In this document: positions 7,699 through 30,194 of the stretch, piece by piece
How positions within the stretch are numbered: the stretch's first letter is position 1
Layout of the letters: the number at the start of each line of letters is the position of its first letter
Position numbers and translations under genes: made by a program
The notes under the pieces: generated by a model
Databases searched by the model: none
What the model was told of the DNA's origin: nothing
What the model saw: the letters and a program-made list of their open reading frames with translations, nothing else
NCBI GenBank assembly: GCA_945871285.1
Contig: CAMBWO010000005.1
Coordinates: 1-41,773 of the forward strand
Length of the DNA stretch: 41,773 nucleotides
Direction: 5' to 3'
Source of the DNA: Pseudorhodobacter antarcticus
Lineage (GTDB): Bacteria > Pseudomonadota > Alphaproteobacteria > Rhodobacterales > Rhodobacteraceae

Positions 7699-7770
7699 AG
7701 TAATTTAGTCAGGTATTGACCCGAGGCGATTTTCGCGGTCTAAGGCAATTCCCGACAAAAGGAGTCAACC

Positions 7771-8766: not shown

Positions 8767-8781
8767 CCCGAACCCTGAATA

Positions 8782-8808
8782 GCTTTCAACCCCCATTGGG
8801 TTGAAAGC
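8782..8808. terminator. 11-bp perfect inverted repeat; candidate terminator after the Fe-type substrate-binding protein gene
   Basis: GCTTTCAACCC-CCATT-GGGTTGAAAGC, 15 nt after the stop codon. No strong U-tract, though AAAACGCGTTGGGGTTTT follows. Confidence 0.5.
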
Positions 8809-8884
8809 AAAACGCGTTGGGGTTTTCTGACCGGATGGACAAATCTTTCGGAATGGCGTTTCTTTCGCCCAAAGGAGTCCGCCC

Positions 8885-9832
8885 ATGCAACATCCGCCGC
8901 GCAAGATCATCATCGACACCGACCCCGGCCAGGATGACGCCTTTGCCATCCTGCTCGCCCTCGCCTCGCCCGAGGATGTCGAAGTGCTGGGTCTGACGGC
9001 AGTGGCGGGCAATGTCGGGCTGAATTGGACCGAGCGCAACACCCGCATCATCTGCGAACTGGCGGGCAAGCCGCAGATGAAGGTCTTTGCCGGCTGTGAC
9101 CGTCCGATGCGGCGCGATCTGGTGACGGCCGAGCATGTCCATGGCAAGACGGGCCTTGACGGCCCGGTGATGGTGGAACCGACAATGCCGCTGCAAAGCC
9201 AGCATGGCGTGGATTTCATCATTGAAACGCTGCGCCGCGAACCGACGGGGTCGGTCACGCTGTGCCCGCTGGGGCCGCTGACCAACATCGCCACGGCCTT
9301 TGTACGGGCGCCCGACATCGTGGGGCGGATTGCGCAGATCGTGCTGATGGGGGGCGGGTATTTCGAAGGCGGCAACATCACCCCCGCCGCCGAATTCAAC
9401 ATATTCGTCGACCCTGAAGCCGCAGATATCGTGTTCCGCGCCGGGGTGCCCCTGGTCGTGATGCCGCTCGATGTGACCCACAAGGCGCTGACCTCGCGGG
9501 CGCGGGTCGAGGCGTTTCGGGCGCTGGGCAGCACCGTGGGCCGCGTCGCCGCCGAATGGGCGGACTTCTTTGAAAGGTTCGATATGGAGAAGTACGGCTC
9601 GGACGGCGCGCCGCTGCATGACCCTTGCGTCATCGCCTATCTGATCCGGCCCGACCTGTTCAAGGGCCGCCATATCAACGTGATGATCGAAACCCAGTCC
9701 GAATTGACGCGTGGCATGACAGTGGCCGATTGGTGGGGTGTGACGGGCCGCCCGGCCAATGCTCTGTTCATGGGGTCGGTCGATGCCAATGGCTTCTTTG
9801 ACCTGCTGACCGAGCGGTTGGGCCGGCTTTAG
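8885..9832 (+). CDS. Nucleoside hydrolase (inosine/uridine-preferring family)
   Basis: IIIDTDPGQDDAFAILLALASPEDVEVLGLTAVAGNVGL; GPLTNIATAF; LMGGGYFEGGNITPAAEFNIFVDPEAA. Confidence 0.92.
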   Translation: MQHPPRKIIIDTDPGQDDAFAILLALASPEDVEVLGLTAVAGNVGLNWTERNTRIICELAGKPQMKVFAGCDRPMRRDLVTAEHVHGKTGLDGPVMVEPTMPLQSQHGVDFIIETLRREPTGSVTLCPLGPLTNIATAFVRAPDIVGRIAQIVLMGGGYFEGGNITPAAEFNIFVDPEAADIVFRAGVPLVVMPLDVTHKALTSRARVEAFRALGSTVGRVAAEWADFFERFDMEKYGSDGAPLHDPCVIAYLIRPDLFKGRHINVMIETQSELTRGMTVADWWGVTGRPANALFMGSVDANGFFDLLTERLGRL

Positions 9833-10935
9833 AGCGCGTCCAGCGACCGCTGCAACGCCGTCCAAAGGGTTTCCGCCGGTTCACAGCCGATCGACAGGCG
9901 GATGAACCCGGGCGCCACCTTGTCGCCCCACCGCAGACGCCGTTCGCCCGAGGTGTGGGTCGAGCCGAAACTGGTGGATTGGACGATCATCCTGCAATCG
10001 GTCAAAAAGCGTTCGGCGGTTTCGGCATCGTTCAGCTCAAAGCTGATCAGAAAGCCGAAACCGGTCATCTGGCGGGCTGCGATTTCATGCGAAGGATCGG
10101 TGGCAAGACCCGGATAGCGCAGGGTTTTGACGGCAGGATGTGCCACCAGACGGGGGGCCAGTTTGCCCGCCGTATCGCACATGCGCGACAGGCGCACGTC
10201 CAGCGTTTCCAGACCCCGGTGCAACAACCACGCCTCGAACGCGCCGGGCACGGAGCCGGTCAGGCGGCGGTTTTCGCGGACGCGGGCAATGAAGGCCGGG
10301 TCACGGCTGGCGACATGGCCGAACAGGACATCGGAATGGCCCGCAGGCGCCTTGGTGTCGGCCGCAACCACGACATCGGCCCCAAGGTCGAGCGGGCGTT
10401 GCAGATAGGGCGTCATGGTGGTGTTGTCGGCAACCACCATGGCCCCGGCGGCATGGGCGCGGGTGCAAAGGGCTGCGATATCAATCACATCCAGACCGGG
10501 ATTCGAGGGGGTTTCGATCAGCACCACATCAACACCGGTGAAATCGGCGGCGGTCATGTCCAGCGTGGGGACCTCGATCACCTTGACGCCATAGGTCGCC
10601 AGATGCGCGCCCAGCAGTCGGCTGACGTAATAGCCGTCGGAGGGCAGCATCAGCACCTTGCCCGCGCCCAGCCCGGCAAAAAGGGCGGCATTGATCGCGG
10701 CCATGCCCGAGGGAAAGGCGACGGTTTCGGCCCCTTCGAGCAGGGCCAGCTGAGCCTCAACCGCCTCCCAGGTGGGCATGCCGGAACGGCCGTAGATGTG
10801 GCTGAGATTGGCCATGTCGGGCGTATAGAACGTCGCCGACGAGGTGATGGGCAGGGCAATCGGGTCACTGGCCGACAACCCTTGCGCCCGGTGATGCAGC
10901 AGGGCCGCGGCCCGTTCGTCTGATGCCTTGTCCAT
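9829..10935 (-). CDS. metC: Trans-sulfuration family PLP enzyme, cystathionine beta-lyase-like
   Basis: ALLEGAETVAFPSGMAAINAALFAGL, VVADNTTMTPYLQRPLDLGADVVVAADTKAPAGHSDVLFGHV, RLSIGCEPAETL. The motif around the PLP lysine is variant (ADTKAPAGHSD versus the common SxTKYxxGHSD). Confidence 0.75.
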   Translation of the reverse strand: MDKASDERAAALLHHRAQGLSASDPIALPITSSATFYTPDMANLSHIYGRSGMPTWEAVEAQLALLEGAETVAFPSGMAAINAALFAGLGAGKVLMLPSDGYYVSRLLGAHLATYGVKVIEVPTLDMTAADFTGVDVVLIETPSNPGLDVIDIAALCTRAHAAGAMVVADNTTMTPYLQRPLDLGADVVVAADTKAPAGHSDVLFGHVASRDPAFIARVRENRRLTGSVPGAFEAWLLHRGLETLDVRLSRMCDTAGKLAPRLVAHPAVKTLRYPGLATDPSHEIAARQMTGFGFLISFELNDAETAERFLTDCRMIVQSTSFGSTHTSGERRLRWGDKVAPGFIRLSIGCEPAETLWTALQRSLDAL

Positions 10936-10986
10936 CTCAACCTCCGGGTTTTCGCGACCCTGCCCCGTTGCGGGGGCAGGTGCAAG

Positions 10987-11877
10987 TCATTCCAGACGCG
11001 CGGGGAAACCATCGGCGCGCAGGTCGGTGTGCAGCAGATCCTCGAGCAGTTTCGCGATCATCGGGGATTGCGCCTCGCCACCATAGGCGGCTTTGGCGGC
11101 GATATAGGTCTGGTTCGTCATCGAGGCGAGATCGAGAGGGACACCGAATTCCTTGCCAAATCCCAAGGCGAATCCAAGGTCTTTCAGGGCGAGGTCAATG
11201 TTGAATGCGATGTCGTAGGACCCGTTCAGGATCAGCGCGCCTTCGGTCTCATGGACAAAGGAATTTCCGGAGGAGGCCGCGATGGCCGCATGGGCCTGCG
11301 CCAGATCAAGCCCGCCGCGCTTGGCCAGCATCAATGCTTCGGACGTAGCCTTGAGGTGAATGAAGGCCAGCATGTTCGTGATGACCTTGATGATCGAGGA
11401 CGATCCCAAGGGGCCCATATGGAAAATCCGGTCGCCCATCGCCTGCATCGCGCCGTGATGCAGGTCGAACAGGTCACGGTCGCCGCCCGCGAGCATGGTG
11501 ATCTTGCCCTGATGGGCCAAATGGACGCCACCCGTGACGGGCAGTTCCATCATGCGGATGCCAACGTCGGACGCGACGGCGGCCAGGCGCAAGACCTCGT
11601 CCCGGCCAAGGGTGGACATCTCGACCCAGGAGGCGGTTTTCTGCATATTGGGCAGGATGTTGCGCAACACTCTTTCCGAAACCGCAGGCGACGGCAGGCA
11701 GGTGATGACATGATCGACCGAGGCCGCCACAGCCTCGGCACTGGTGGCGCGGGTGGCCCCAGGGACGGTCAGAGCGGGGTTCAGGTCATAGACGGTGACC
11801 GGGAAACCCGCCTTGACCAGACAGCCCGCACAGGCAGCACCCAGGTTGCCAAGGCCGATGTAACCATAGTGAATCAT
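10987..11877 (-). CDS. NAD(P)-dependent beta-hydroxyacid dehydrogenase (3-hydroxyisobutyrate dehydrogenase-like)
   Basis: MIHYGYIGLGNLGAACAGCLVKAGFPVTVYDLNP, MELPVTGGVHLAHQGKITMLAGGD, GSSSIIKVITNMLAF. Start ATG overlaps the MttB-like stop (ATGA). Confidence 0.85.
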   Translation of the reverse strand: MIHYGYIGLGNLGAACAGCLVKAGFPVTVYDLNPALTVPGATRATSAEAVAASVDHVITCLPSPAVSERVLRNILPNMQKTASWVEMSTLGRDEVLRLAAVASDVGIRMMELPVTGGVHLAHQGKITMLAGGDRDLFDLHHGAMQAMGDRIFHMGPLGSSSIIKVITNMLAFIHLKATSEALMLAKRGGLDLAQAHAAIAASSGNSFVHETEGALILNGSYDIAFNIDLALKDLGFALGFGKEFGVPLDLASMTNQTYIAAKAAYGGEAQSPMIAKLLEDLLHTDLRADGFPARLE

Positions 11878-13436
11878 TGGAAATACATCCTGTATTTGGC
11901 ACGGATGGCGGCGTCGATGGCAGGGGCGACCATGCAGCCCGCCTTGGCAAGGATGGCGTTCTTGCGCTCGATCGCCTTGTCCAGCAGCAGGGGCTTCTTG
12001 GCCTCGTTCCACTCTTTGGGCGACATCCGGTTGGCGACGGCGGGATAGATGTATTCGGTTTGCATCAGTTTCAACGTCTGGTCCGAGCCGAGGTAATGGC
12101 CAGGACCGCCGAGGCAAACCTGCTTCATCGCCTCGATGCTGGTGTTGTCCTCGGTGACCTCGATGCCACGGACGCAGCGCAAGGCCTGACCCAAAAGATC
12201 GTCGCCCAAGATCAGGGATTCATGGCAAAATCCCAGAAGCGAGGCGTGCATCCCCACGGCCTCATAGCACATGTTCAGGCCTGCCAAACCTGCGAGGGTG
12301 TTGGTGATGCCCTGTTCCCACCCGGCCTGCATGTCGGGCAGTTTGCTGTCGGTGATGCCCGAGGCAGCACCGCCGGGCAGGTCGTAAAATCGGTGCATCT
12401 GGGCGCAGCCTGCGGTCAGCAGAGCCTGCTCGGCACTGCCACCCGACATGGCCCCGGTCCGCAGGTCGGATACAAAGGGCCAGGTGCCAAAGATCGCCGG
12501 GGCGCCCTTTTTGATGGCGTTGACATAGACGACCCCAGCCAGACATTCGGCCATGGCCTGCACGATGGCGAGCGCAATGGGGGCCGGAGCAGTGGCCCCG
12601 GCCTGGCCTGCGGAGAGGAGAAGCATGGGCATGCCGCGACGGACGCAATCCTCCATCACCTTGCAGGACTCTTCGGCGAATTTCATCGGAGGGACGACGA
12701 AGCAGTTGGAATTGCTGACAAAAGGCCGCTCCAGCCATTTGCCCTCGCCCCCCGCGACCATGTGCAGGATGTCAAAGGCGGGGGCGACGGATTCGGGTTC
12801 GAAGAATGAGGTGCCGACGTGTTTGGTCGTGGCGGCAAGGCAGGCGTACAGCGTGTTCAGGTCCATGTCGCGGTTGTCGATGACATCGCGGCAGACCATG
12901 GTGCGCTGGTAGAAATGAATGTTGTCAAGGTGATGCACCAGACGGCCCGCATCATAGAGGTCCTGCGCGGTCGAGTCGCGATACTCCAGCGTGATGGGGT
13001 CGACAATATGCACGGCGGCCCCTGCGGTGCCGAAGTGGACGTTGGAGCCGGACAGGTGCAGGTCGTGCTTTTCCTCGCGGGCGTGCAGGGTGATGTTGCG
13101 GGCGGCGACGGCCAGCATATCCTCGACCAAAGCCCGCGGGAAACGGATGCGGCCATCGTCGCCCAGGATCGCGCCTGCCCCGGTCAGGATTTCGACACCG
13201 GACTCGGGCGCCTGGGAAAGGCCAATCACCTCAAGCGCTTGCAGGGCGCTTTCGTGAATTTTGGCGATGCCGGCCTCGGTCAGGGGTTTGTATTGGCCGC
13301 CGGGCATGCCCGCACGCACGGGGCGCAGATTGTCGGCCAAGGGCGCAGAACGGACGGCGACGCGGTTGGCGCGGCCCCCGGAGCGGCGGTTGCGGGCGGG
13401 CTCGCAGGCCTCGCCGATATCAGCAATATCGTTCAT
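11874..13436 (-). CDS. Trimethylamine methyltransferase (MttB) superfamily protein, non-pyrrolysine type
   Basis: PLTEAGIAKIHESALQALEVIGLSQAPESGVEILTGAGA, LHLSGSNVHFGTAGAAVHIVDP, GGPGHYLGSDQTLKLM. Uninterrupted frame (no internal amber codon). Confidence 0.87.
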   Translation of the reverse strand: MNDIADIGEACEPARNRRSGGRANRVAVRSAPLADNLRPVRAGMPGGQYKPLTEAGIAKIHESALQALEVIGLSQAPESGVEILTGAGAILGDDGRIRFPRALVEDMLAVAARNITLHAREEKHDLHLSGSNVHFGTAGAAVHIVDPITLEYRDSTAQDLYDAGRLVHHLDNIHFYQRTMVCRDVIDNRDMDLNTLYACLAATTKHVGTSFFEPESVAPAFDILHMVAGGEGKWLERPFVSNSNCFVVPPMKFAEESCKVMEDCVRRGMPMLLLSAGQAGATAPAPIALAIVQAMAECLAGVVYVNAIKKGAPAIFGTWPFVSDLRTGAMSGGSAEQALLTAGCAQMHRFYDLPGGAASGITDSKLPDMQAGWEQGITNTLAGLAGLNMCYEAVGMHASLLGFCHESLILGDDLLGQALRCVRGIEVTEDNTSIEAMKQVCLGGPGHYLGSDQTLKLMQTEYIYPAVANRMSPKEWNEAKKPLLLDKAIERKNAILAKAGCMVAPAIDAAIRAKYRMYFQ

Positions 13437-15897: not shown

Positions 15898-16925
15898 TCA
15901 GGGGACTCCGTGGGGATCAGGACCAGTTTACCGGGATAGCGCCCGGCAACGAGGTCGGCTTGGGCAAGGGCGATGTCGCGCATCGGGTAGGTTTGCGACA
16001 CGACGGGGCGGATGCGGGCGGTATTGATGAGGATGACCAGCCCGGCGAAAACCTCGCGGGGTTGGTGGGTTGCGCCGTGGAGGGTCAGGTCATTGAGGTA
16101 GATGGTGCGCAGATCGCCCTTGATCATCGGCCCGGCCACCGCGCCGCTTGTGGCATAGCGGCCACCGGGTTTCAGGGCGGTCAACCGCGCTTCGAACCCG
16201 TCGCCACCGACCACGTCGATGACAACGTCAAAGCTGCGGGGGCCGGGTGTGCTGTCGCGGTCAAGCACGGCCGCGCCAAGACTGCGCACCACGCCGGATT
16301 TGCTAAGCGAGCATTGCCCCGTCACCGCGGCCCCCCGCAACAGCGCCAGTTGCACAGCCGCCAGACCGACCCCGCCCGAGGCACCCGTGACCAGAACCCG
16401 CTCACCCGCTGCCACTTGGGCGCGGGTCAGCAAGCTGTGGGCGGCGCCGTGGGCGCAGGGCATCGCGCCAATTTCGATGTCGGACAGCGTCGAGGCGGTC
16501 ACGTCATGCAAGTGCTGCGCCTTAACGACACAGTATTGCGCAAACGCGCCGTCAAACTCGGACCCGATCGAGACAAAGGCGATGGGATTATCGGGTGTCG
16601 GTTCGTGCTGATTGGTCGGGCAGATCACGCGTGCGCCTATGGGAGGGCCATCGACACCCTCACCCAAGGCGACCACCCGTCCGCACAGGTCAGACCCCTG
16701 GATTCGGGGAAAGGCCACCTCGCCCGCCCACCCTGCCCGCCCATCGCGGCCATACCAGCCGACGCGGGTGTTGACGTCGGTCATGTTGACTCCCGCCGCC
16801 AGAACCCGCACCAGAACCTGACCGGGACCGGGGCGTGGCACCGCGATGTCATCCCGCCAGACCAGCATGTCCGGCCCGCCATGGCCGGTCAATTGGACGC
16901 CTGACATGGTTGCCGGAAGGGTCAT
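15894..16925 (-). CDS. MDR-family zinc-type alcohol dehydrogenase / quinone oxidoreductase-like protein
   Basis: MTLPATMSGVQLTGHGGPDMLVWRDDIAVPRPGPGQVLVRVLAAGVNMTDVNTR; VLVTGASGGVGLAAVQLALLRGAAV. ATGA overlaps at both ends. Confidence 0.88.
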   Translation of the reverse strand: MTLPATMSGVQLTGHGGPDMLVWRDDIAVPRPGPGQVLVRVLAAGVNMTDVNTRVGWYGRDGRAGWAGEVAFPRIQGSDLCGRVVALGEGVDGPPIGARVICPTNQHEPTPDNPIAFVSIGSEFDGAFAQYCVVKAQHLHDVTASTLSDIEIGAMPCAHGAAHSLLTRAQVAAGERVLVTGASGGVGLAAVQLALLRGAAVTGQCSLSKSGVVRSLGAAVLDRDSTPGPRSFDVVIDVVGGDGFEARLTALKPGGRYATSGAVAGPMIKGDLRTIYLNDLTLHGATHQPREVFAGLVILINTARIRPVVSQTYPMRDIALAQADLVAGRYPGKLVLIPTESPE

Positions 16926-19363
16926 GCGCGGATACGCTCGTTCTTCGGGTCCCACAGGGGTTGGTCGACCTGAACCGTGGCAGGGAAAAGCTGGCCGAAA
17001 ATCTCGACCTCGACCTTGGTGCCGGGGACGTTGATTTCGGTTTTCAACATGCCAAGGCCGATGCAGGCCTGCACCCGGTGGCCGTAATAGCCCGAGGTCA
17101 GTTCGCCCACAACTTTGCCGTCATGCCAGATGGTCGACATATAGGGCGGGTCCTGATCGCCCGCGTCGATCAGCAGGGTGCAAAAGCGTTTGGTGACGCC
17201 GCGCTGCTTTTCCGCCTCCAACGCCTGTTTGCCGCGGAAGGCCGGTTTGGCCCAGTCGATGAACCTGTCAAGACCGCCTTGCAACACGGTGTAATCGGTG
17301 GACAAATCGCCCTTCCAGGCCCGGTAGCCCTTTTCCACGCGAAGGCTGTTCAGCGCGAACATGCCGAACGGGCGCAGGCCCTTGGGCGTTCCGGCGGCCA
17401 TGACGGCATCCCAGACTTTGGCCGTATCAGCGACAGGCGTGTGGATTTCCCAACCGAGTTCCCCGGCGAAGGAAACGCGGAAGAGATAGACTTGAACCCC
17501 GGCGATCTGGGCCTGTTGAAAGGTCAGCCAGCCGCGGCCCAAGTCGGCATCCGAGCAGGCGGCAAGGATGTCGCGGGACTTGGGGCCGGTCAGGATGTGG
17601 CAGGACCACACGTCAGTCGCGTCCATCAGGGTCAGCCCGGGGGCGAGGTGTTTCTGGAGCCATTCCTTGTCGTGGGATTGGGCGGTGGCGGCGGTGATCA
17701 GCAGAACCTGATCCTGACCCAGCCGTGCCACCGACATTTCGGTGACGATCCGGCCCTTGTCGTCGGCAAAATAGGCCAGACCCAAGCGGCCGATCGAGGG
17801 CAGTTTGCCGGTGATCTGCTGGGCGAGCCAATCCGCCGTGCCGGGGCCGGTGATCATGTATCGGCTGAACCCCGGCAGGTCGAGGATCCCTGCGGCGTCA
17901 CGAACGGCGGCGGCCTCCTCGGCCACGGCACCAAACCAAGGCCCTTTGCGATCCCAGGTTTGCTGGGCGGATTCAGACGTGTCATCGCCAGGGCGGGCAT
18001 ACCACAGCGCCCGCTCCCACCCGTTATAGGGGCCGAACTGGCCGCCCAAAGCCTTGGTGCGGTCATGCACGGCGCTCAGTTTCTTGTCGCGCCCCTCGGG
18101 CCAGGTGTGGTGCGGGAACTGGATGGCGTATTCGTGGCCGTAGACTTCCATCCCCTTTTTGACGCAGTATTCTTGATCTTCAAACCCCGTAAACCGGCGC
18201 GGATCGCAGGACCACATATCCCATTCGGTGGCGCCTTCGGTGATCCATTCCGCCAGAACCTTGCCCGCGCCACCCGATTGGCAAATGCCAAAGGTAAAGA
18301 CGCAGGCCTCGAACGCATTGGGCACGCCGGGCATGGGGCCGATCAGCGGGTTGCCGTCGGGGGTATAGGGGATCGGGCCGTTGATGACCTTGGTCAGCGC
18401 CGCCTTCTCCAACAGGGGCACGCGGGCCATGGCGTCGTTGATGTGCCATTCCAGCCGCTCCAGATCGTCGGGGAACAGTTGAAAGCTGAAATCCTCGGGG
18501 AACGGGTCGTCAGGGGTGTGCCAATGGGCGCGGCAGTTGCCCTCATAGGGACCAAGGTTGAAGCCGTTCTTTTCCTGGCGCAGGTAGTAGGAGCTGTCCA
18601 CGTCGCGCAGCAGGGGCAGTTTGTGGCCCACCTGTGCGGACCAGTCGGCCAGTTCGGGGATTGTGTCGAACAGCATGTATTGATGCGACATCACCATCAT
18701 CGGCAGATCGCGGCCGAACCACTTGCCGACCTCGCGGGCGTAATACCCGGCGGCGTTCACGACATATTCGCAGCGGATATCGCCCTTGGGGGTGCTGATG
18801 ACCCACTCGTCGCCCTCGCGCCGCGCCCCGGTGGCGGGGCAAAACCGCTCGATCCGGGCGCCCATGTTGCGAGCACCCTTGGCCAGGGCCTGGGTCAACT
18901 GTGCGGGGTCGATGTCGCCGTCATAGGGGTCATAAAGCGCCCCTGTCAGATCGTGGGTCGAGACGAAGGGATAGCGGGTCTTGATCTCGTCCGGGGCAAG
19001 GATTTCAAGGTCCATGCCCTGATAACGGCCCATGCCGACGACGCGCTTGAACTCTTGCAGGCGTTCCTTGGTGTGGCCAAGGCGCACCGAGCCTGTGACA
19101 TGATAGTTCATCGGGTAATCAACTTCGGCGCCCAAACCCCGATAAAGGCTCGCAGAATAGCGCTGCATGTTCATGATCGACCATGAGGAGGAGAAGGTCG
19201 GCACATTGCCGGCCGCGTGCCAGGTGGAGCCTGCGGTCAGCTCGTTCTTCTCCAACAGCACACAATCCGTCCAGCCCGCCTTGGCCAGATGATACAGCGC
19301 GGAGGCCCCAACGGCCCCGCCGCCAATGATGACGACGCGCGCCTGTGTCGGAAATTCTGCCAT
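16922..19363 (-). CDS. FAD-dependent oxidoreductase fused to GcvT domain (dimethylglycine dehydrogenase-like), 813 aa
   Basis: VVIIGGGAVGASALYHLAKAGWTDCVLLEKNELTAGSTWHAAGN; ELGWEIHTPVADTAKVWDAVM; MFALNSLRVEKGYRAWKGDL; GELTSGYYGHRVQACIGLGML. Confidence 0.93.
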   Translation of the reverse strand: MAEFPTQARVVIIGGGAVGASALYHLAKAGWTDCVLLEKNELTAGSTWHAAGNVPTFSSSWSIMNMQRYSASLYRGLGAEVDYPMNYHVTGSVRLGHTKERLQEFKRVVGMGRYQGMDLEILAPDEIKTRYPFVSTHDLTGALYDPYDGDIDPAQLTQALAKGARNMGARIERFCPATGARREGDEWVISTPKGDIRCEYVVNAAGYYAREVGKWFGRDLPMMVMSHQYMLFDTIPELADWSAQVGHKLPLLRDVDSSYYLRQEKNGFNLGPYEGNCRAHWHTPDDPFPEDFSFQLFPDDLERLEWHINDAMARVPLLEKAALTKVINGPIPYTPDGNPLIGPMPGVPNAFEACVFTFGICQSGGAGKVLAEWITEGATEWDMWSCDPRRFTGFEDQEYCVKKGMEVYGHEYAIQFPHHTWPEGRDKKLSAVHDRTKALGGQFGPYNGWERALWYARPGDDTSESAQQTWDRKGPWFGAVAEEAAAVRDAAGILDLPGFSRYMITGPGTADWLAQQITGKLPSIGRLGLAYFADDKGRIVTEMSVARLGQDQVLLITAATAQSHDKEWLQKHLAPGLTLMDATDVWSCHILTGPKSRDILAACSDADLGRGWLTFQQAQIAGVQVYLFRVSFAGELGWEIHTPVADTAKVWDAVMAAGTPKGLRPFGMFALNSLRVEKGYRAWKGDLSTDYTVLQGGLDRFIDWAKPAFRGKQALEAEKQRGVTKRFCTLLIDAGDQDPPYMSTIWHDGKVVGELTSGYYGHRVQACIGLGMLKTEINVPGTKVEVEIFGQLFPATVQVDQPLWDPKNERIRA

Positions 19364-19420
19364 GGTTGCCCCCGTATTTGCGCCCAGATTATCACCGCCC
19401 CGCGCCCCGCTTTCAATTCG

Positions 19421-19467
19421 CCCTGATCTGCGCTATTGATCGACAAATCCGATCAGGGGGCGCAGAT
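19421..19467. promoter_or_regulatory. Nested inverted repeats in the divergent LysR/demethylase-operon intergenic region; candidate LysR operator
   Basis: CCCTGATC(19421-19428)/GATCAGGG(19451-19458) and ATCTGCGC(19426-19433)/GCGCAGAT(19460-19467), plus TGATC at 19437-19441. Confidence 0.5.
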
Positions 19468-20335
19468 GCAGATTGAACTTCTGGATACTTTCCTTGACCT
19501 TATCGAAACCCGCAGCTTTCACCGCACGGCGGAGCGGTTGCACATCACGCAGTCCACCGTTTCCGCCCGGGTGCAGGCGCTGGAGGCGGCGGTGGGGGGG
19601 CGGTTGTTCACCCGGTCCCGCGCCGGGACCAACCTGTCGACTGAGGGGCTGAAGTTTGAGGCGCATGCCCGCGCCCTGCGCCACGCCTGGACCGAGGCGC
19701 GGCGGGCAGTGGAACCCAGCAGCACGGCCATCACCCTGCGCATCGGCATCCAGAACGACCTTGCGGCGGGGCAGATTGGCGATTGGGTGTCCAATTTCCG
19801 GCGCAGCCTGCCAGACTGTGCGTTCTATATCGAGCCGGATTACTCGCTCCAGATGTGCCGCGATCTGGACCGGGGGGCGCTGGATTTCGCAGTCGTATAT
19901 TCGCCGCAATCCCTACCCGACCTGCACATCGTCTCGATTGGCGAGGTGCGCTATCGCCTGATCAGCACCGATGGCGCAACCAAAACGGATGTGAACCCGC
20001 TGCGCTATATTCGCGGCAGCTATTCCCCCGCATTCGACATTGCTCACCGACAAGCCCTGCCTGACCATTCGGTGGCGCTGCTCGCTTCGGGGCAGAACAC
20101 CGCTGTTGCGGGGCTGTTGCAGTCGATGGGCGGGTCGGGGTTTGTGCTGGAAGACAGTGCCAAGGCAATGGTGGCGCAAGGAAAATTCCAGATGGTGGCC
20201 GATGTCGAGCCTATCGGCCAGCCGATCTATGCCGTCATGCACCAACGCCACCGCACCTCGCGCATGCACCGGCGTTTGACGCGGATCGTTGCGCGCGAGA
20301 TTGCGGGGCGCGACGGCACTAGAGCAGCGTCGTAA
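19466..20335 (+). CDS. LysR-family transcriptional regulator
   Basis: MQIELLDTFLDLIETRSFHRTAERLHITQSTVSARVQALEAAVGGRLFTRSRAGTNLSTEG: canonical LysR HTH. Divergent from the demethylase operon. Confidence 0.93.
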   Translation: MQIELLDTFLDLIETRSFHRTAERLHITQSTVSARVQALEAAVGGRLFTRSRAGTNLSTEGLKFEAHARALRHAWTEARRAVEPSSTAITLRIGIQNDLAAGQIGDWVSNFRRSLPDCAFYIEPDYSLQMCRDLDRGALDFAVVYSPQSLPDLHIVSIGEVRYRLISTDGATKTDVNPLRYIRGSYSPAFDIAHRQALPDHSVALLASGQNTAVAGLLQSMGGSGFVLEDSAKAMVAQGKFQMVADVEPIGQPIYAVMHQRHRTSRMHRRLTRIVAREIAGRDGTRAAS

Positions 20336-20999
20336 GCCGGTAGCCTGGCGCATGGGCCAATCTGACCCAGGTGATCGGCGCCTCGGTCCCCCAGGTGCAG
20401 CGTTCGGTGATGAAAAGTGCCACACCGGGGTGCAGGGCCAGGGCCGCCGCTTCCTCGGGGGTCGCGGATTCGGCGGAAAAGGCGATGTCGCCCGTGGCAA
20501 AGGCGATGGTGGCGACCAGCCATTCGTTGACGCTGATCTGGGTAAAGTCGGGCGCGGGCTTGGGCAGGACGGCGGGGTTCAGCCAGCGGTCCTCATACAC
20601 CTGCGGGACACCTGCGGCGAGGTGAAGGGTCTGCAGATGCAGCATCGGTGTGCCGGCCAGAAGGCCCAGACGGGCGGCGACGGTGACAGGGGGTTGGTCC
20701 AATTCCTGCCGGATCAGGCGAAAGGCATAGGTTTGTCCCCGCGCCGCAACCTCTTGGCGGATCACGGGAATATCCAGCGTCGCCTTGCGGACAGGCAAGG
20801 CCGCAACCCGCGTGCCGGCCTTGCGCTTGCGCTCCAAGACGCCCGCATCGGCCAGCTCTTTCAACGCCCGGTTCACAGTGGCCCGGGCGACGCCAAACAC
20901 CTGCGCCACCAATTCGTCGGACGGGATCAGCCCACCGGGGGGCCAAACGCGGGTGCGGATGCGGCGCGTCACCTCGGCGCGGACCGCCTCCCACCCCAT
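20319..20999 (-). CDS. hutC: GntR/HutC-family transcriptional regulator (histidine utilisation repressor)
   Basis: GntR HTH (PSDELVAQVFGVARATVNRALKELADAGVLERKRKAGTRVA) and UTRA-type effector domain; TGATG coupling to hutF. Confidence 0.85.
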   Translation of the reverse strand: MGWEAVRAEVTRRIRTRVWPPGGLIPSDELVAQVFGVARATVNRALKELADAGVLERKRKAGTRVAALPVRKATLDIPVIRQEVAARGQTYAFRLIRQELDQPPVTVAARLGLLAGTPMLHLQTLHLAAGVPQVYEDRWLNPAVLPKPAPDFTQISVNEWLVATIAFATGDIAFSAESATPEEAAALALHPGVALFITERCTWGTEAPITWVRLAHAPGYRLTTLL

Positions 21000-22357
21000 C
21001 AGAGCGCCCCGCGCAGGCGGGTGACGGTGGCGGCATAGGCGCGGGTCACGGCATCACGGGCGTGGTGGCGGCCCGCGGTGACCAAATGGCGTCCAGCGGA
21101 CCACAAATCCGTGACCAGACGGTCGTCCCCGGCAAAGATATAGGTGTCCAGAATGGTATCGCCCGTGGCGTCCATCAGGTCAGGCCCCGACAGGTCGAGC
21201 GCCATGAGATCGGCCCACATCCCCACCGCAATCGACCCCGACGACCGACCCGCTGCCCGTGCGCCCCCGGCCAAGGCACCGTCCAACAGCACCCGCCCGG
21301 TGGACCGATCTGCCGTGGCCAGAATGGCGCGGCCTTTCAGACCCAGGCGCTGGGAATACTCCAACAGACGCAACTCTTCTGACAAGGATATCCGCAGGTT
21401 GCTGTCCGATCCTATGCCAAAAACGCCGCCCGCAGAGAGGTAGGCTTGCCCGTCAAAGATGCCGTCGCCGAGGTTTGCCTCTGTGATCGGACACAGGCCC
21501 GCCACGGCCCCGGACAAGGCCAGGGCGCGGGTTTCGGCGGGCAGCATTTGCGTGGCGTGGATCAGGCACCAGCGGGCATCTACGCCGTGATGGGTCAGCA
21601 ACCAGTCCACCGGACGCTGACCAGTCGAGGCCAAAACCTCCGTTACTTCAGCCACTTGTTCGGCGACGTGAATGTGAATGGGGGCCTTGGGAGCGATCTG
21701 GGCAGCCATGGCCAGCCCCTCTGGGCTCGCGGCGCGCAGGGAATGGGGGGCGACGCCCAGAACGGAATCGGCGGGCAGGTCGCGCAAAGCAACCGCACTC
21801 GCCTGCCACAGCGCGGCAAACTGATCGGGGTCATTGCCGAACCGCCGCTGCCCGGCTGTCAGCGCCCGGCCATCACAGCCGCCGCGTTCATAGAGCACCG
21901 GCAGATGGGTCAGCCCCAGTCCGGTTTCCACCGCCGCCGCCGCAATGCGCGCCGACATTTCGGCAAGGTTGTCATAGCGCACGCCACCCGGCGCGTGGTG
22001 CAGATAGTGAAACTCGGCCACCGCCGCAAACCCGGCTTCGGCCATCTCGACCATCACCATCGCGGTAATCGCCTGCACATCCTGCGGCGTCAATTGGTCC
22101 AAAAACCGATACATCAGGGTCCGCCAGGTCCAGAAACTGTCCTGCCCGGCGCTGCGCTTTTCGGTCAAGCCTGCCATGGCCCGCTGAAAAGTATGGGAAT
22201 GCAGGTTGACCGGTGCTGCCAGCAGACAGTCCAGCCGCTGCCCCCGTGGTGCCGCCCCCGCTGTGACCGCTATGATGCGACCACCCGCGATTTCCACCAG
22301 AACATCCTGCGCCCAGCCCTGGGGCAGCAGCGCGGTTTTTGCGTGAAGATGGATCAT
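20999..22357 (-). CDS. hutF: Formimidoylglutamate deiminase
   Basis: MIHLHAKTALLPQGWAQDVLVEIAGGRI..., VNLHSHTFQRAMAGLTEKRSAGQDSFWTWRTLMYRFLDQLTP; hut context. Confidence 0.92.
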   Translation of the reverse strand: MIHLHAKTALLPQGWAQDVLVEIAGGRIIAVTAGAAPRGQRLDCLLAAPVNLHSHTFQRAMAGLTEKRSAGQDSFWTWRTLMYRFLDQLTPQDVQAITAMVMVEMAEAGFAAVAEFHYLHHAPGGVRYDNLAEMSARIAAAAVETGLGLTHLPVLYERGGCDGRALTAGQRRFGNDPDQFAALWQASAVALRDLPADSVLGVAPHSLRAASPEGLAMAAQIAPKAPIHIHVAEQVAEVTEVLASTGQRPVDWLLTHHGVDARWCLIHATQMLPAETRALALSGAVAGLCPITEANLGDGIFDGQAYLSAGGVFGIGSDSNLRISLSEELRLLEYSQRLGLKGRAILATADRSTGRVLLDGALAGGARAAGRSSGSIAVGMWADLMALDLSGPDLMDATGDTILDTYIFAGDDRLVTDLWSAGRHLVTAGRHHARDAVTRAYAATVTRLRGAL

Positions 22358-22365
22358 GCTATCCC

Positions 22366-22394
22366 TTGACCTGCGCATTATGTGCAGACATAAT
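22366..22394 (+). promoter_or_regulatory. Sigma70-like promoter for hutI operon
   Basis: TTGACC (22366-22371), 17-nt spacer, CATAAT (22389-22394), 30 nt upstream of hutI ATG. Confidence 0.55.
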
Positions 22395-22415
22395 AGCCAT
22401 AAGTTCAGACATAAG
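22377..22415. promoter_or_regulatory. Candidate HutC operators (two sites)
   Basis: Perfect palindrome ATTATGT-GCAG-ACATAAT (22377-22394) overlapping the -10; second partial site CATAAGTTCAGACATAAG. CAGACATAA is repeated exactly 21 bp apart (22385 and 22406). Confidence 0.6.
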
Positions 22416-22423
22416 GCAAGCCA

Positions 22424-23617
22424 ATGTCACTTCTCCTCAGCAATATGACCCTCGCAACGATGACCGGCGGCTATGGCCTGATCCCCGATGGCGCGGTGGT
22501 GATCGAGGACGACATCATCGTATGGGTCGGCCCGCGCGGGCAGGTCCCCGGCCCCTACGACACGCTGCCGCCGACCGACATGGGCGGGCGTCTGGTCACG
22601 CCTGGGCTGATTGACTGCCACACCCACATCGTCTTTGGCGGCGACCGGGCGGCCGAGTTTGAAATGCGGCTGAACGGCGCGAGTTATCAGGAGGTCGCCC
22701 GCGCCGGGGGTGGCATCCTGTCCACCGTCACCGCGACCCGTGCGGCGGATGAGGAGGAGTTGCTGGCGCAGGCCTTGGTGCGGGCAGACCAGATCATCGC
22801 GGGCGGTGCCACGACGATCGAGGTGAAGTCGGGCTATGGTCTGACCGTGGACGATGAGGTCAAGATGCTGCGCGTCGTCCGCCGGATTGGCGAGATGCGC
22901 GATGTCACGGTGCTGACCACCCATCTGGCCGCCCATGCCGTGCCGCCGGACTACAAGGGACGTGCGGATGCCTATATCGACGAGGTGGCGATCCCCTCGC
23001 TGCAGGCTGCAAAGGGCTTGGTCGATGCGGTGGATGCGTTCTGCGAGGGCATCGCCTTTTCGCCCACACAGGTGGAGCGGTTGTTTCAGGCGGCTCAAGC
23101 CCTTGGTTTGCCCGTGAAACTGCACGCCGAACAACTGTCAGACCTGAAGGGTGCCATGCTTGCGGCACGGTTTGGGGCGCTGTCGGCGGATCATCTGGAA
23201 TATCTGGCGCAGGACGGCGTGGACGCCATGGCGCAGGCCGGGACAGTGGCGGTGATCCTGCCGGGGGCATTCTATACGCTGCGCGAAACGCAGCCTCCGC
23301 CGATTGCCGCCCTGCGCGCCGCCGGAGTGCCGATGGCGTTGGCGACGGACTGCAACCCCGGATCGTCGCCGATCACCTCGCTGACGCTGGTCATGAACAT
23401 GGCCTGCACCCTGTTCCGCATGACCCCGCAGGAGGCGCTGCAAGGCGTGACGACCCATGCCGCCCGCGCCTTGGGCTTGACCGACCGTGGCCAGATTGCG
23501 CCCGGCCTGCGCGCCGATCTGGCGGTATGGCAGGCGCGTCATCCGGCAGAACTGTCTTACCGCATCGGGGCGACCCCGCTGCATTCCCGCATTTTCGGAG
23601 GCCGCCTTGACGCCTGA
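22424..23617 (+). CDS. hutI: Imidazolonepropionase
   Basis: [75 protein letters not shown]. Confidence 0.96.
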
Positions 23618-25136
23618 AATCCTGCTGCCCGGTCAGACAACACTGGCCCAACTGTCCCGTATCTATCGCACAATGGCCCCAGCCACCCTGCACCCCACGG
23701 CCCGACCGGGGGTCGAGGCGGCGGCGGCGGCAATCGCGGCGGCAGCGGCGGGAACGGCGGCGGTTTACGGCGTGAACACCGGTTTCGGCAAGCTGGCCTC
23801 GTTGAAGATCGCGCAGGAAGACACGGCCACCTTGCAGCGCAACCTGATCCTGTCGCATTGCTGCGGCGTGGGCGACCCCATGTCGACCCGCGTGACCAGG
23901 CTGATGATGGCGCTCAAGCTGTTGTCGCTGGGGCGTGGCGCGTCGGGTGTGCGCTGGACGATCATCGCGCAACTCGAGGCGATGCTGGCGCAGGGCGTCA
24001 CCCCGGTTGTTCCCGCGCAGGGGTCAGTCGGCGCCTCGGGCGACCTCGCCCCCTTGGCGCATATGGCCGCCGTGATGATTGGCGCGGGTGAGGCGGAGTA
24101 TCAGGGACAAGTTATGCCGGGGGCCGAGGCACTCGCCGCTGCCGGGATGGACCCCGTGGTTCTGGGGCCAAAAGAGGGGTTGGCGCTGATCAACGGCACG
24201 CAGTTTTCCACCGCCTATGCCCTCGCCGGGCTGTTCGACGGCTGGAATGCGGCGGTCACCGCGCTGGTGACATCGGCCCTGTCCACCGATGCCATCATGG
24301 GATCGACCGCCCCGCTGCACCCCGAAATCCACACCTTGCGCGGTCATGCGGGCCAGATCGAGGCGGCAGCGGTCATGCGCACCCTGCTGGACGGCTCGGC
24401 CATCCGCGAGAGCCACCGCGAAGGCGATGCGCGTGTGCAGGACCCCTATTGCATCCGCTGCCAGCCGCAGGTGACCGGCGCCGCGATGGACGTGCTGCGC
24501 ATGGCCGCCCATACGCTGGAAGTTGAGGCGAATGCGGCGACGGACAATCCTTTGGTATTGTCGGATGGCCAGATCGTGTCTGGTGGCAACTTTCACGCGG
24601 AACCCGTTGGTTTTGCGGCGGATATAATGGCGATGGCGCTGTCCGAGATTGGGGCGATTGCGCAGCGGCGCGTGGCTTTGATGGTGGATCCGGTGCTGTC
24701 GTTCGACCTGCCCGCCTTCCTGACCCCGCGCCCCGGATTGAATTCGGGTCTGATGATTGCCGAGGTGACGACGGCCGCCTTGATGAGCGAGAACAAACAC
24801 CTGGCCCATCCGACCGTGATCGACAGCACCCCTACCAGTGCCAACCAGGAGGACCACGTCTCGATGGCCGCTCATGGTGCGCGGCGGTTGGGCAAGATGG
24901 TGGAAAACTTGAATGTGATCCTCGGGGTCGAGGCGATCTGTGCCGCGCAAGGCGTTGATTTCCGTGCCCCTTTGCCAACGTCTGCCCCCTTGCAGGCCGT
25001 GGTGGCCCGTCTGCGGCAGGATGTGGCGACCTTGGGCGACGACCGCTATCTGGCCCCTGATCTGGCAGCCGCGACCCGTCTGATCGGAAATGGCGATCTG
25101 GCACGGGCGGCGGGCATTGCCTTGCCGAGCCTGTGA
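23607..25136 (+). CDS. hutH: Histidine ammonia-lyase
   Basis: Probable TTG start at 23607 (GGAGG at 23597-23601), [15 protein letters not shown]...[16 protein letters not shown]-forming ASG in [32 protein letters not shown]. Confidence 0.95.
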
Positions 25137-26278
25137 TGAAACCGTTGGACGGCCTGCGCGTGCTGGACCTGACCCGCGTGATGGCCGGGCCATTTTGCAC
25201 AGCGCTCTTGGCCGATCTGGGGGCCGAGGTCATCAAACTGGAGCCGCCGCAGGGCGATGACTACCGCCATATCGGGCCGTTTGTGCAGGGCGAAAGCGCG
25301 CTGTTCACCCTGATGAACCGGGGCAAACAGTCGATCGTGCTGGATTTGAAGGACGAGGCCGCCCGCACCACGGCGATCAAGATCGCCCTGCACTGCGATG
25401 TGATCGTTGAAAACTTTCGCCCCGGCGTGGCCAGCCGGCTGGGGCTGGGTCCGGAACTGCGGGACGTGAAACCTGCCCTCGTCTATGCCTCGATCTCCGG
25501 CTTTGGCCAGACCGGCCCTGCGGCCCACCTTCCCGCTTATGATCTGGTCGCCCAGGCCATGTCGGGCCTGATGGCCGCGACCGGCGAGGATGGCGGCGCG
25601 CCGCTGAAGGTGGGGGAAAGCTACGGTGATCTCATGGCGGGGCTATACGCCAGCTGGGCCATTCTGGCCGCCCTGCACCAGCGCGACCGAACTGGCGTTG
25701 GGGCGACACTGGATGTGGCCATGTTTGACGCCCTGTTTTCCCTGCTGCCCACCTCCCACGCGGTCCAGTTCTATGCAGGGACCACACCGCAGCGCGTCGG
25801 CAACCGTCATCCCCTTTCGACCCCCTTTGGCTGTTATGCCACATCCGACGGTCAGGCCGTGATTGCCGTTCTGGGGGATCGGCAATGGCTGTCGCTCTGC
25901 GCCCTGATCGGCCACCCCGACGCCGCCCAGGACCCACGCTTTGCAACAGACACCACCCGCACCGCCCATGAACCACAGGTCAAATCGATGATTGAGACTT
26001 GGTCGTGCACCTTGCCCACCGATCAGGTGATCGCGGCCCTCTCGGCCGCTGGCATCCCAACCGCTCCGATACAAACCCTTGAAACCGCAGCCAACTCCGA
26101 CCACGCCCGCGCTCGCGGTCTGGTCACCGACCTGCCCCATGCCACCCTGGGCACCGCCCGCACCGTGGGCCAACCCGTGCGCTTTGACGGGGAAAAGCCG
26201 ATTGCCACCCAATCGGCCCCCGCCCTTGGCGCCGATACAGCCGCCATCCTGCACCGTTTGGGGATCGCCCATGGCTGA
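25136..26278 (+). CDS. Class III (CaiB/BaiF/FRC-family) CoA-transferase inside the hut operon
   Basis: PLDGLRVLDLTRVMAGPFCTALLADLGAEVIKLEPPQGDDYRHIGPF; catalytic Asp context VGESYGDLMAGLYA; TGATG coupling to hutH. Confidence 0.94.
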   Translation: MKPLDGLRVLDLTRVMAGPFCTALLADLGAEVIKLEPPQGDDYRHIGPFVQGESALFTLMNRGKQSIVLDLKDEAARTTAIKIALHCDVIVENFRPGVASRLGLGPELRDVKPALVYASISGFGQTGPAAHLPAYDLVAQAMSGLMAATGEDGGAPLKVGESYGDLMAGLYASWAILAALHQRDRTGVGATLDVAMFDALFSLLPTSHAVQFYAGTTPQRVGNRHPLSTPFGCYATSDGQAVIAVLGDRQWLSLCALIGHPDAAQDPRFATDTTRTAHEPQVKSMIETWSCTLPTDQVIAALSAAGIPTAPIQTLETAANSDHARARGLVTDLPHATLGTARTVGQPVRFDGEKPIATQSAPALGADTAAILHRLGIAHG

Positions 26279-27419
26279 CCTGTTCCACATGCTGACCGAC
26301 GAAGAGCGCGCCTTTCTGGACATGCTCGCCATCTTCTGCACCCGCGAAATCGCGCCGAAGGCGGCGGAGACGGATGAAACCGCAACCTTCGTCCATGCCC
26401 AGCTGGCGGCCTTGGCGCAGACCGGGATGATGGGGGCGAACCTGCACGAACCCTATGGTGCCGGCATTTCGGCCCAGGCGCTGCTGCGGGCGGTCGAGCT
26501 TGTGGCAGGGACTTGCGGGTCCACCGCGTCAGCCTTGACGGCGCATTTCCTCGCCACCGACAGTATTGCGCTGGGCGGTGACGCGGCCCTGCAAGCCCGC
26601 TATCTGCCCGCGGCGGCCGAGGGGCGCAGCCTTGGCGCCTTTGCCCTGACCGAACCCAACGCCGGGTCCGACCCCGCCGACATGCGGACACGGGCCACGG
26701 TCGAGGGGGATGGCTACCGCATCAGGGGCCGCAAATGCTTTATCTCCAACGGCGGAGTGGCCGATTTCGTGGTGGTCTATGCCGTCACCGACCCCGCCGC
26801 CGCCCATCGCGGAATTTCGGCCTTTGTGGTGGATCGCGGCACACCAGGTCTGGTGCCGGGCCGGGTCGAGCGCACGATGGGCCTGCGGGGCGGGCATGTG
26901 TGGGAGTTGGATCTGGACCTCCATGTCCCCACCGAAAACCGTCTGGGGCCTGAGGGCACAGGGTTTCCCACCGCGATGAAAGTGCTGGACAATGGCCGGG
27001 TCGAAGTGGCCGCCATGGCCATCGGTATTGCAGGGCAAGCCATTGATCTTGCTGTGGAATGGGCACGCACCCGCATCATCGGCGGCGAGTCTTTGGCGGC
27101 CCGTCAGGGCATCCGCTGGCAATTGGCAGACATGGCCACCGACCTGCACGCCGCCCGCCTGATGGCGCTGGAGGCAGCGCGGCAGCGGCAGGCGGGTGAG
27201 AGGTTCACCGAAGCCGCCTCGATGGCCAAACTCTACGCCTCTGAAATGGCCCACCGCGTCACCGACGGCGCCTTGCAAATCCACGGCGGCTATGGCTTTA
27301 CCCGCGATTTCCCGCTGGAACGCCTGTCCCGCGATTGCCGCATCCTGCGCATCTACGAAGGCTCCTCCGAAATTCAACGCAACATCATCGCCAGCCATCT
27401 GGCCCTGAGGACATCATGA
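26271..27419 (+). CDS. Acyl-CoA dehydrogenase inside the hut operon
   Basis: [83 protein letters not shown], with the YEG catalytic glutamate context. Confidence 0.95.
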
Positions 27420-29095
27420 CCCGCCACAACACCCGCGACATCTATCCCGCCACCGGCAGCACGATCACCGCCAAGTCCTGGATGACCGAGGCGCCGATGC
27501 GGATGTTGATGAACAACCTGCACCCCGATGTCGCTGAAAACCCACACGAATTGGTCGTTTACGGCGGCATCGGCCGCGCCGCGCGGACGTGGGAGGATTT
27601 CGACAAGATCGTCGCCACTCTGAAAACCCTGAACGACGACGAAACGCTGCTGGTGCAATCCGGCAAGCCCGTGGGCGTCTTTCGCACCCACAAAGACGCC
27701 CCCCGTGTGTTGATCGCGAACTCCAACCTTGTGCCACATTGGGCGACCTGGGACCATTTCAATGAGTTGGATAAAAAAGGTCTGGCGATGTATGGCCAGA
27801 TGACCGCGGGGTCCTGGATTTACATTGGCACTCAAGGGATTGTGCAGGGAACCTATGAAACATTTGCCGAGGCCGGGCGCCAGCACTACGACGGCAACCT
27901 GACCGGCAAATGGATCCTGACCGGCGGCTTGGGCGGCATGGGTGGCGCACAGCCTCTGGCCGCCGTGATGGCCGGGGCCTGCTGTCTGGCCGTGGAATGC
28001 GACGAAACCCGCATCGATTTCCGCATCCGCACCCGCTATGTCGATGCCAAGGCCCGCACATTGGACGAAGCCTTGGCGATGATCGACGACTGGACAGCCA
28101 AGGGCGAGGCGAAGTCGGTGGGCCTTCTGGGCAATGCCGCCGATGTGTTCCCCGAACTGGTGCGCCGCATGAAGGCCGGCGGACATCGCCCTGATATCGT
28201 GACAGATCAAACCTCTGCTCATGATCCTCTGAACGGCTATCTGCCGCAGGGCTGGACGGTGGAACAGGCCAAGGCCGCCCGTGAAGCCGATCCAAAATCC
28301 GTTGAACGCGCCGCCCGTGCCAGCATGAAAACCCATGTCGCCGCGATGGTCGATTTCTGGAACGCAGGCGTCCCGACGCTCGACTACGGCAACAACATCC
28401 GCCAGGTCGCCAAGGATGAAGGCCTGACCAACGCCTTCGCCTTCCCCGGCTTCGTTCCGGCCTATATCCGCCCCCTCTTTTGCCGCGGCATCGGCCCCTT
28501 TCGGTGGGTCGCGCTTTCGGGCGACCCCGCCGACATCCACGCCACCGACGCCGCGATGAAGCGCCTCTTCCCCGACAACGCTCACCTGCACCGCTGGCTC
28601 GACATGGCCGCCGACCGCATTGCGTTTCAGGGATTGCCGGCCCGCATCTGCTGGATCGGGCTTGGCGATCGGCACAAGGCCGGGCTGATGTTCAACGACA
28701 TGGTCCGCTCGGGCGAACTCAAGGCCCCCGTCGTGATCGGCCGCGACCATCTCGATTCAGGGTCCGTCGCCTCGCCCAACCGCGAGACCGAGGCGATGAA
28801 GGACGGCTCCGACGCCGTTTCGGACTGGCCCCTCCTCAACGCCCTCCTCAACACCGCCTCCGGTGCCACCTGGGTTTCGCTGCATCATGGCGGCGGCGTC
28901 GGGATGGGCTTTTCGCAGCATTCGGGCATGGTCATCTGTGCCGATGGCACCGAGGATGCTGCCCGAAGGATCAGCAATGTGCTGTGGAACGACCCCGCCA
29001 CCGGGGTCATGCGCCATGCCGATGCGGGCTATGACATCGCGCTGGATTGTGCCCGCGAACATGACCTGCGGTTGCCGGGCATTTTGGGGAATTGA
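27416..29095 (+). CDS. hutU: Urocanate hydratase
   Basis: [92 protein letters not shown] overlap with the acyl-CoA dehydrogenase. Confidence 0.97.
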
Positions 29096-29237: not shown

Positions 29238-30194
29238 TTACACCACCCTTGGGTTCGCCGCCTTGGCGCCGGTCCAGATTGGGTTGGACCAGGCCCGTTT
29301 TCCGGCGGCGTCGATCACGGCGGCGCGGACCCAAGGGGAGTTGTTCAACCGCTCCAGCGGAACGGCGCCGCGGGTCAGCGAATGGCCGTGAACGGCCTTG
29401 GCCCCTGTCCCCCAGCCAATCGCGATGATCGAGGCAGCGGCAGAGCATTCCACCACCAGATGGTCGTCCTCGATCCGCACATCGCGCAACTCGGGCCCTT
29501 GGGTCGAATAGAAATGGCCGGCCTTCAATGCGGTCAGCAGCGCCTCGGGCTCATTCGCTTGCGATTTGACCATCACCCAGCCGCCGAAATGGTCGGGTTC
29601 CGAGAAATGCGCGTCGTCGGTCGCGATCATGGTCAGGGCGCGGCCTTCGGTCAGCAGCAGATCGGCAAGCGCGAAGCCGTCGGGCCGGTCGCAGCCTGTG
29701 GCGCAGCCGTGGTTGTAGATCTCGACCGCATGGGCGGCTGTGATGCTGCGGGCATCCTGCGCCGTCAGGCCCGACCATTGCGGATGGGCAATCGCCACAA
29801 AGGCCCCGGCCGCCACGGCCCGTGCCGCAATCTGCGGCCCGGTTTCCTGACCCGCCACCGGCAAAAAGCTGGGCGAATTGGACGGGGCGAAATCGGGCGG
29901 CAGGCCGACCGCCAGAATATGCCACAACTCGCCATTCGCCATGGCACCGGAATGCAGTTCGGCCCCCAGAATGGTGGTAAAGCTGTTGGTCCGCATCGGC
30001 ACGGTATCGACAATGGGATAGTCATAGTGCCCGACGAAATGGTCGGTCAGCGCCAGGAAATCATAGCCTTCGTCGCGGTAACGCCGGCACACCTCTTCCG
30101 GGGCCAGCACGCCATCGGAGCGGGTGGAATGGGTGTGCAGATTGCCGCGCCAAAAGCGGCCGGCGGCGGTAAAGGCGGGGTCACGCAACGTCAT
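29238..30194 (-). CDS. PHP-domain metallohydrolase (CehA/McbA-like)
   Basis: FWRGNLHTHSTRSDGVLAPEEVCRRYRDEGYDFLALTDHFVGHYDYP; VAIAHPQWSGL; TDDAHF. Confidence 0.85.
   Translation of the reverse strand: MTLRDPAFTAAGRFWRGNLHTHSTRSDGVLAPEEVCRRYRDEGYDFLALTDHFVGHYDYPIVDTVPMRTNSFTTILGAELHSGAMANGELWHILAVGLPPDFAPSNSPSFLPVAGQETGPQIAARAVAAGAFVAIAHPQWSGLTAQDARSITAAHAVEIYNHGCATGCDRPDGFALADLLLTEGRALTMIATDDAHFSEPDHFGGWVMVKSQANEPEALLTALKAGHFYSTQGPELRDVRIEDDHLVVECSAAASIIAIGWGTGAKAVHGHSLTRGAVPLERLNNSPWVRAAVIDAAGKRAWSNPIWTGAKAANPRVV

Follow-up and report, generated by a model that had tools for sequence, protein, structure and literature searches.

In the hut operon of Pseudorhodobacter antarcticus, a family III CoA-transferase gene and an acyl-CoA dehydrogenase gene (the pair) probably provide an oxidative entry of imidazole propionate (dihydrourocanate) into the Hut pathway; the substrate, the direction and the CoA donor are inferred from comparative sequence evidence. 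An earlier note on this DNA had proposed that the pair converts imidazole propionate to urocanate, and the proposal is supported by linkage of the pair to hut genes, its co-occurrence with urocanase, predicted HutC operators, and hutU-pair units without hutH.

The window, meaning the whole stretch of 41,773 nucleotides that was analysed, contains the following features around the pair.

20319..20999, minus strand: hutC, GntR/UTRA repressor of the hut genes (TIGR02018 HutC equivalog, 233 bits, cut-off 220; Pfam GntR and UTRA)
20999..22378, minus strand: hutF, formimidoylglutamate deiminase (Pfam HutF_N, Amidohydro_1)
22379..22392, unstranded: predicted HutC-type operator 1, TATGTGCAGACATA, in the hutF-hutI promoter (motif scan with Markov control)
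22400..22413, unstranded: predicted HutC-type operator 2, TAAGTTCAGACATA (motif scan, 2 mismatches)
22424..23617, plus strand: hutI, imidazolonepropionase (TIGR01224, above cut-off)
23607..25136, plus strand: hutH, histidine ammonia-lyase, TTG start (Pfam Lyase_aromatic, E=1.3e-179)
25136..26278, plus strand: family III CoA-transferase, proposed imidazolepropionate:urocanoyl-CoA CoA-transferase (PF02515, E=2.6e-124; catalytic Asp165)
26271..27419, plus strand: acyl-CoA dehydrogenase, proposed imidazolepropionyl-CoA dehydrogenase (PF02771/PF02770/PF00441; catalytic Glu363)
27416..29095, plus strand: hutU, urocanate hydratase (TIGR01228, 957 bits, cut-off 375; Pfam Urocanase N/M/C)

The earlier note had described hutI, hutH, the pair and hutU as one overlapping run, and the ORF coordinates confirm it: hutI and hutH overlap by 11 nt, hutH and the CoA-transferase gene by 1 nt (TGATG), the two genes of the pair by 8 nt, and the dehydrogenase gene and hutU by 4 nt (ATGA), with no internal stop in any of the five ORFs. 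Upstream of hutI, hutF and the above-cutoff hutC are divergent. The hutU product scored under the NCBIfam cut-offs for thiourocanate hydratase. A genome of the same genus (G355, locus L100) carries hutI-hutH-hutU without the pair, and thus the pair is an accessory insert in the hut operon. In many relatives, hutG separates hutH from the CoA-transferase gene. No hutG was seen at 22424-29095 of the window, though hutF is present, and therefore the formylglutamate deformylase gene must be elsewhere. Positions 16922-20335 and 29238-30194 hold a dimethylglycine/sarcosine dehydrogenase-like gene, a LysR regulator and a Pfam-less protein, and in several close relatives these, too, are in the vicinity of hut.

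Both enzymes keep their catalytic contexts, as had been noted earlier from the window alone, and the residues are invariant among orthologs. The CoA_transf_3 domain spans residues 4-368 of the 380 in the CoA-transferase; its catalytic aspartate, D165 in 'SYGDLMAGLYA', is invariant in 104 orthologs (98% cut) and aligns with the aspartate of the YfdE/formyl-CoA transferase chains. The dehydrogenase has its N-terminal, middle and C-terminal domains, and its catalytic glutamate, E363 in the Y-E-G motif 'YEGSSEIQ', is invariant in 106 orthologs (98% cut). The folds of both acyl-CoA dehydrogenases and family III transferases are promiscuous, and sequence does not reveal the substrate. The best NCBIfam equivalog scores were 299 of 700 bits for the CoA-transferase, below every curated cut-off, and 368 of 640 bits for the dehydrogenase, also below the curated cut-off. 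By score, the profile nearest to the dehydrogenase is acryloyl-CoA reductase, and its PDB relatives include the caffeyl-CoA reductase CarC. One acidic residue, E245, is specific to the clade and may contact the imidazole ring.

The same genome encodes an ETF (PF01012 pair on contig C107) and an ETF-QO (PF05187 on contig C86). Near the pair, ETF genes were matched in none of 110 loci, and an acyl-CoA synthetase signature in only 2 of the 110, one of them a paralog locus excluded below (L131). The presence of an ETF and ETF-QO in a genome whose pair has no dedicated ETF or synthetase agrees with a cycle that is oxidative and recycles CoA, and ETF, ETF-QO and the canonical catalytic residues together support a predicted oxidation to ubiquinone.

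The earlier note had called for a genome search for the pair beside hut genes. Among the best 80 named genome matches (61-85% identity, Alphaproteobacteria), the CoA-transferase gene is directly 5' of the dehydrogenase gene in all 80, and hutH, hutI or hutU lies beside the pair in 69, from Rhodobacterales, Hyphomicrobiales and other Alphaproteobacteria; further hut-linked pairs were found in other lineages. In a maximum-likelihood tree, 106 dehydrogenases formed one orthologous clade (SH-aLRT 98), set apart from paralogs that include the acyl-CoA dehydrogenases of the window's own genome. One 45% match (G672, L131) grouped with unrelated paralogs, lacked a CoA-transferase and was excluded. Deep lineages in the tree were HutC-type alphaproteobacterial, with hutIH(G)-pair-hutU; LysR-divergent, with LysR and the pair flanking a hut cluster in L089, L090, L091, L129, L132 and L079, while most LysR-controlled members do not adjoin hut; and Pseudomonas-like, with hutC-hutU-pair-NCS1. 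At least three deep lineages of what the tree resolves as one orthologous family are tied to hut, each by a different gene order. Hut linkage is therefore not confined to close relatives, the pattern that the earlier note would have taken as a sign of chance insertion.

Urocanase accompanied the pair in every pair-bearing genome checked. The dehydrogenase occurred in 5 of 289 genomes of the class sample, all five with urocanase (baseline 84/289; hypergeometric 1.9e-3), and in 13 of 279 genomes of the family sample, again all with urocanase (baseline 146/279; hypergeometric 1.7e-4); because the sampled genomes are related, which the test ignores, these values are not strict probabilities and the co-occurrence counts are not phylogenetically independent. 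Four of four further pair-bearing genomes checked in the phylum sample also had urocanase, and where the pair is not part of an intact hut operon, as in 11 genomes, all 11 encode urocanase elsewhere.

The Pseudomonas-like loci, a label that we give from gene content and operator type, link the pair most directly to urocanase. In the family of genome G626, hutU is immediately 5' of the pair in 15 of 16 positive genomes. Four loci (L128, L160, L161, L162) consist of hutC, hutU, the CoA-transferase, the dehydrogenase and a urocanate-type transporter of the NCS1 family, with hutH absent there, while in L163 and L165 the pair is within a full hut cluster. The pair-linked urocanase of G626 is an ordinary urocanate hydratase by NCBIfam and is 96% identical to the main HutU of that genome, which is itself adjoined by an NCS1 transporter (79% identical). 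A HutC-linked urocanase without an adjacent histidase calls for another source of urocanate, for which the pair is the candidate, and since urocanate can arise by alpha,beta-desaturation only from its dihydro compound, the substrate would be imidazole propionate. From these units we infer, by what we regard as a tight argument, that the pair makes urocanate from imidazole propionate.

The pair is under predicted HutC-type operators even when it lies away from hut. The palindrome of the window's hut promoter, TATGTnTAGACATA, recurs in 64 of 67 testable hut or module promoters; there were 89 copies in 9.9 kb of promoter sequence versus 8 in the other 1.23 Mb, and 0-2 would be expected in total from Markov-1 sequences. 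The published footprinted site of Pseudomonas HutC is TGTA-N2-TACA, and HutC leaves the DNA upon urocanate (PMC12977541). In the Pseudomonas-like loci, TGTA-N2-TACA is in the leader of hutU2, or in L159 in that of the CoA-transferase gene, and for most of these loci it is the sole copy in 18-20 kb. A HutC-like palindrome, ATTATGTAAATACATAAT, also adjoins the pair in L132 (9010), L089 (4062) and L090 (6082); in L132 a TRAP transporter, which may serve as an alternative importer, is encoded directly downstream of it.

Seven rhizobial-type loci (Phyllobacterium, Sinorhizobium, Shinella, Mesorhizobium, Aquamicrobium and others) carry the pair without hut genes. In all seven, a HutC-like regulator is encoded divergently, four genes specify an ABC importer of amino-acid type, and TATGTnTAGACATA is directly upstream of the CoA-transferase gene. 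Two regulators of these detached modules were scanned and both were above-cutoff HutC by NCBIfam, as was the regulator of a Mesorhizobium plasmid module, which likewise has the operator and an ABC importer of amino-acid type. Strong scores for the importer were found in 3 of 13 pair-positive versus 1 of 67 pair-negative hutU genomes (p about 0.01). No ABC transporter lies beside the window's pair. Since the importer tracks the pair loosely and is absent there, we rejected it as a required partner. In L054 (6372-9500), an intact pair and the ABC importer are between fragments of hutI and hutU, which are deletion scars of a hut operon reduced to the module. The same importer, at 75-80% identity, occurs without the pair in L164 of genome G296 (7165-13355). 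The genes divergent from it there are molybdenum hydroxylase genes resembling CoxG, CoxS and CoxL, and the locus may provide another route for using an imidazole compound.

In the mechanism that we propose, the CoA-transferase would load CoA onto imidazole propionate, and the dehydrogenase, with Glu363 as base, would form the alpha,beta double bond to give urocanoyl-CoA. Electrons would pass from FAD to ETF, ETF-quinone oxidoreductase and ubiquinone. The CoA-transferase would then release urocanate, to be hydrated by HutU, the product of the next gene, with HutI acting next. As no synthetase gene lies at the pair, the simplest means of activation would be the transferase, whose most likely donor in steady state would be urocanoyl-CoA; it is this absence by itself that suggests the donor. 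The earlier note had called the cycle self-priming, which would hold once the cycle is running and fails for its start, where the first CoA would come from elsewhere, such as succinyl-CoA or another cellular CoA ester. HutC would control the operon, and if urocanate releases it as in Pseudomonas, the product would induce its own route.

The chemistry is reversible, and the pair might instead activate urocanate and dispose of electrons by reducing it to imidazole propionate, in the way that anaerobes reduce caffeate or cinnamate. The acryloyl-CoA reductase profile and the presence of CarC among the PDB relatives agree with such a direction. However, caffeyl-CoA reductase comes as CarC-CarDE (PMC5861303), whereas ETF genes are missing from the neighbourhood of the pair in the 110 loci. 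With ETF-QO in the genome, and with the pair found next to an importer and a urocanase copy that consumes urocanate, we consider reduction very unlikely. Chance capture by the hut operon of genes for the catabolism of an unrelated acid is the explanation to which we give the least credence. Both enzyme families are large and versatile, and the G355 operon identifies the pair as an accessory insert, but several independent gene orders, operators retained after the pair left hut, and the presence of urocanase in every pair-bearing genome checked argue against capture by chance.

Another histidine-derived acid, either N-methylated imidazole propionate or imidazole lactate as its CoA ester, is an unlikely main substrate, with imidazole propionate as a side substrate. 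Some loci (L125, L126) have a VanA-type Rieske oxygenase, a reductase, a HisC-like aminotransferase and a GlcD-like dehydrogenase with the pair, and where Rieske genes occur a substituted (e.g. N-methyl) imidazole propionate might be used. The Rieske, aminotransferase and GlcD-like genes are, however, absent from the window and from most loci, and the satellite urocanase is an ordinary HutU. Imidazole lactate would be better served by the co-located 2-hydroxyacid dehydrogenases and aminotransferase, and dehydration of a 2-hydroxyacyl-CoA is not a reaction expected of an acyl-CoA dehydrogenase.

Several neighbouring genes suggest use of related compounds. Two plasmids, p2 of Gemmobacter fulvus and Mesorhizobium pMspAR02a, carry next to the pair the genes for a VanA-type Rieske oxygenase and a reductase, together with those for an aminotransferase resembling HisC and a dehydrogenase of GlcD type. 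A VanA-type Rieske oxygenase, a possible N-demethylase of methyl-imidazole compounds, recurs beside hut or the pair in L126 (3887-8542), L125 (10296-15152), L101 (11037-12044), L078, L091, L050 and L058, and in L125 and L126 it is found with a 2Fe-2S reductase, the HisC-like aminotransferase and a GlcD-type FAD dehydrogenase. In the non-alphaproteobacterial locus L165 (2720-12095), hutH is followed by 2-hydroxyacid dehydrogenases of LldD and GlcD type, a related importer of the ABC family, an aminotransferase resembling HisC and a further copy of HutC; this set adjoins hutU-pair-NCS1-hutI-hutG. The genes are likely to serve imidazole-lactate utilisation, from imidazole lactate through imidazole pyruvate to histidine. 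PhyH-type and 2OG-Fe(II) oxygenase genes adjoin hutU and the pair in L079 (6004-6843) and L165 (12266-13360).

We give about even chances to a broader reading, in which a funnel controlled by HutC, with the pair at its core, brings imidazole acids derived from histidine back into Hut in both Alphaproteobacteria and Pseudomonas-like bacteria. Imidazole propionate would enter via CoA esters as urocanate, D- and L-imidazole lactate via FAD/FMN dehydrogenases and the HisC-like aminotransferase as histidine, and N-methyl forms via the Rieske demethylase. Imidazole propionate would thereby have a general sink that has so far had no genetic definition.

Microbes, including those of the gut, form imidazole propionate from histidine. 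The compound has been linked to both type 2 diabetes and heart disease, and its synthesis by UrdA is well studied. Coote and Hassall (Biochem J 132:409, cited in PMC9157411) reportedly described in 1973 the degradation of imidazolylpropionate and imidazolyl-L-lactate by Pseudomonas testosteroni, which is reported to grow on imidazolylpropionate; to our knowledge, no genes were identified for the degradation of imidazolylpropionate. Our search of the open-access literature found no gene for imidazole propionate breakdown, only metabolomics, UrdA and general Hut work, and no paper that names urocanoyl-CoA or imidazolepropionyl-CoA. The pair points to a genetically undefined way of turning imidazole propionate into urocanate for catabolism. 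Since the pair, an operator and an importer are defined and carriers can be cultured, among them Paracoccus denitrificans with the same operon (L053), degradation becomes directly testable, and if the role is true, the enzymes would offer a route to remove or measure imidazole propionate.

Compared with known systems, the pair shares with the classical Hut pathway and HutC regulon the operon, the repressor family, the feed into urocanase and operator half-sites, TGT-N4-ACA as in TGTA-N2-TACA, but it would add a side entry that depends on CoA, has a starting compound other than histidine and can do without HutH. In the caffeate system, the CoA-transferase recycles CoA between product and substrate. 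That system, in Acetobacterium woodii, likewise joins a CoA-transferase to an acyl-CoA dehydrogenase-family enzyme acting on an arylpropanoid/arylacrylate pair; it is reductive and electron-bifurcating with a dedicated EtfAB, whereas the window's pair has no dedicated ETF, and the importers and HutU beside the pair argue for oxidation, unlike the caffeate system. The CaiB/CaiA carnitine system also combines a family III CoA-transferase with an acyl-CoA dehydrogenase-family protein but uses crotonobetaine reductively, and the window's proteins score far below the NCBIfam cut-offs for carnitine CoA-transferase and crotonobetainyl-CoA dehydrogenase. UrdA is a flavin enzyme that reduces urocanate itself (PMC10882135). 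UrdA shares the urocanate/imidazole propionate substrate pair in the opposite direction, whereas by Pfam the window's pair has acyl-CoA dehydrogenase and CoA-transferase domains only, with no UrdA-type flavin reductase domains found. Thus the caffeate- or carnitine-type chemistry of a CoA-transferase/dehydrogenase cycle, here oxidative, classical Hut and the opposite reaction by UrdA are already known, while, as far as the open-access literature shows, the assignment of the genes appears to be new, and so do the mobile module under HutC control and the spread of that module.
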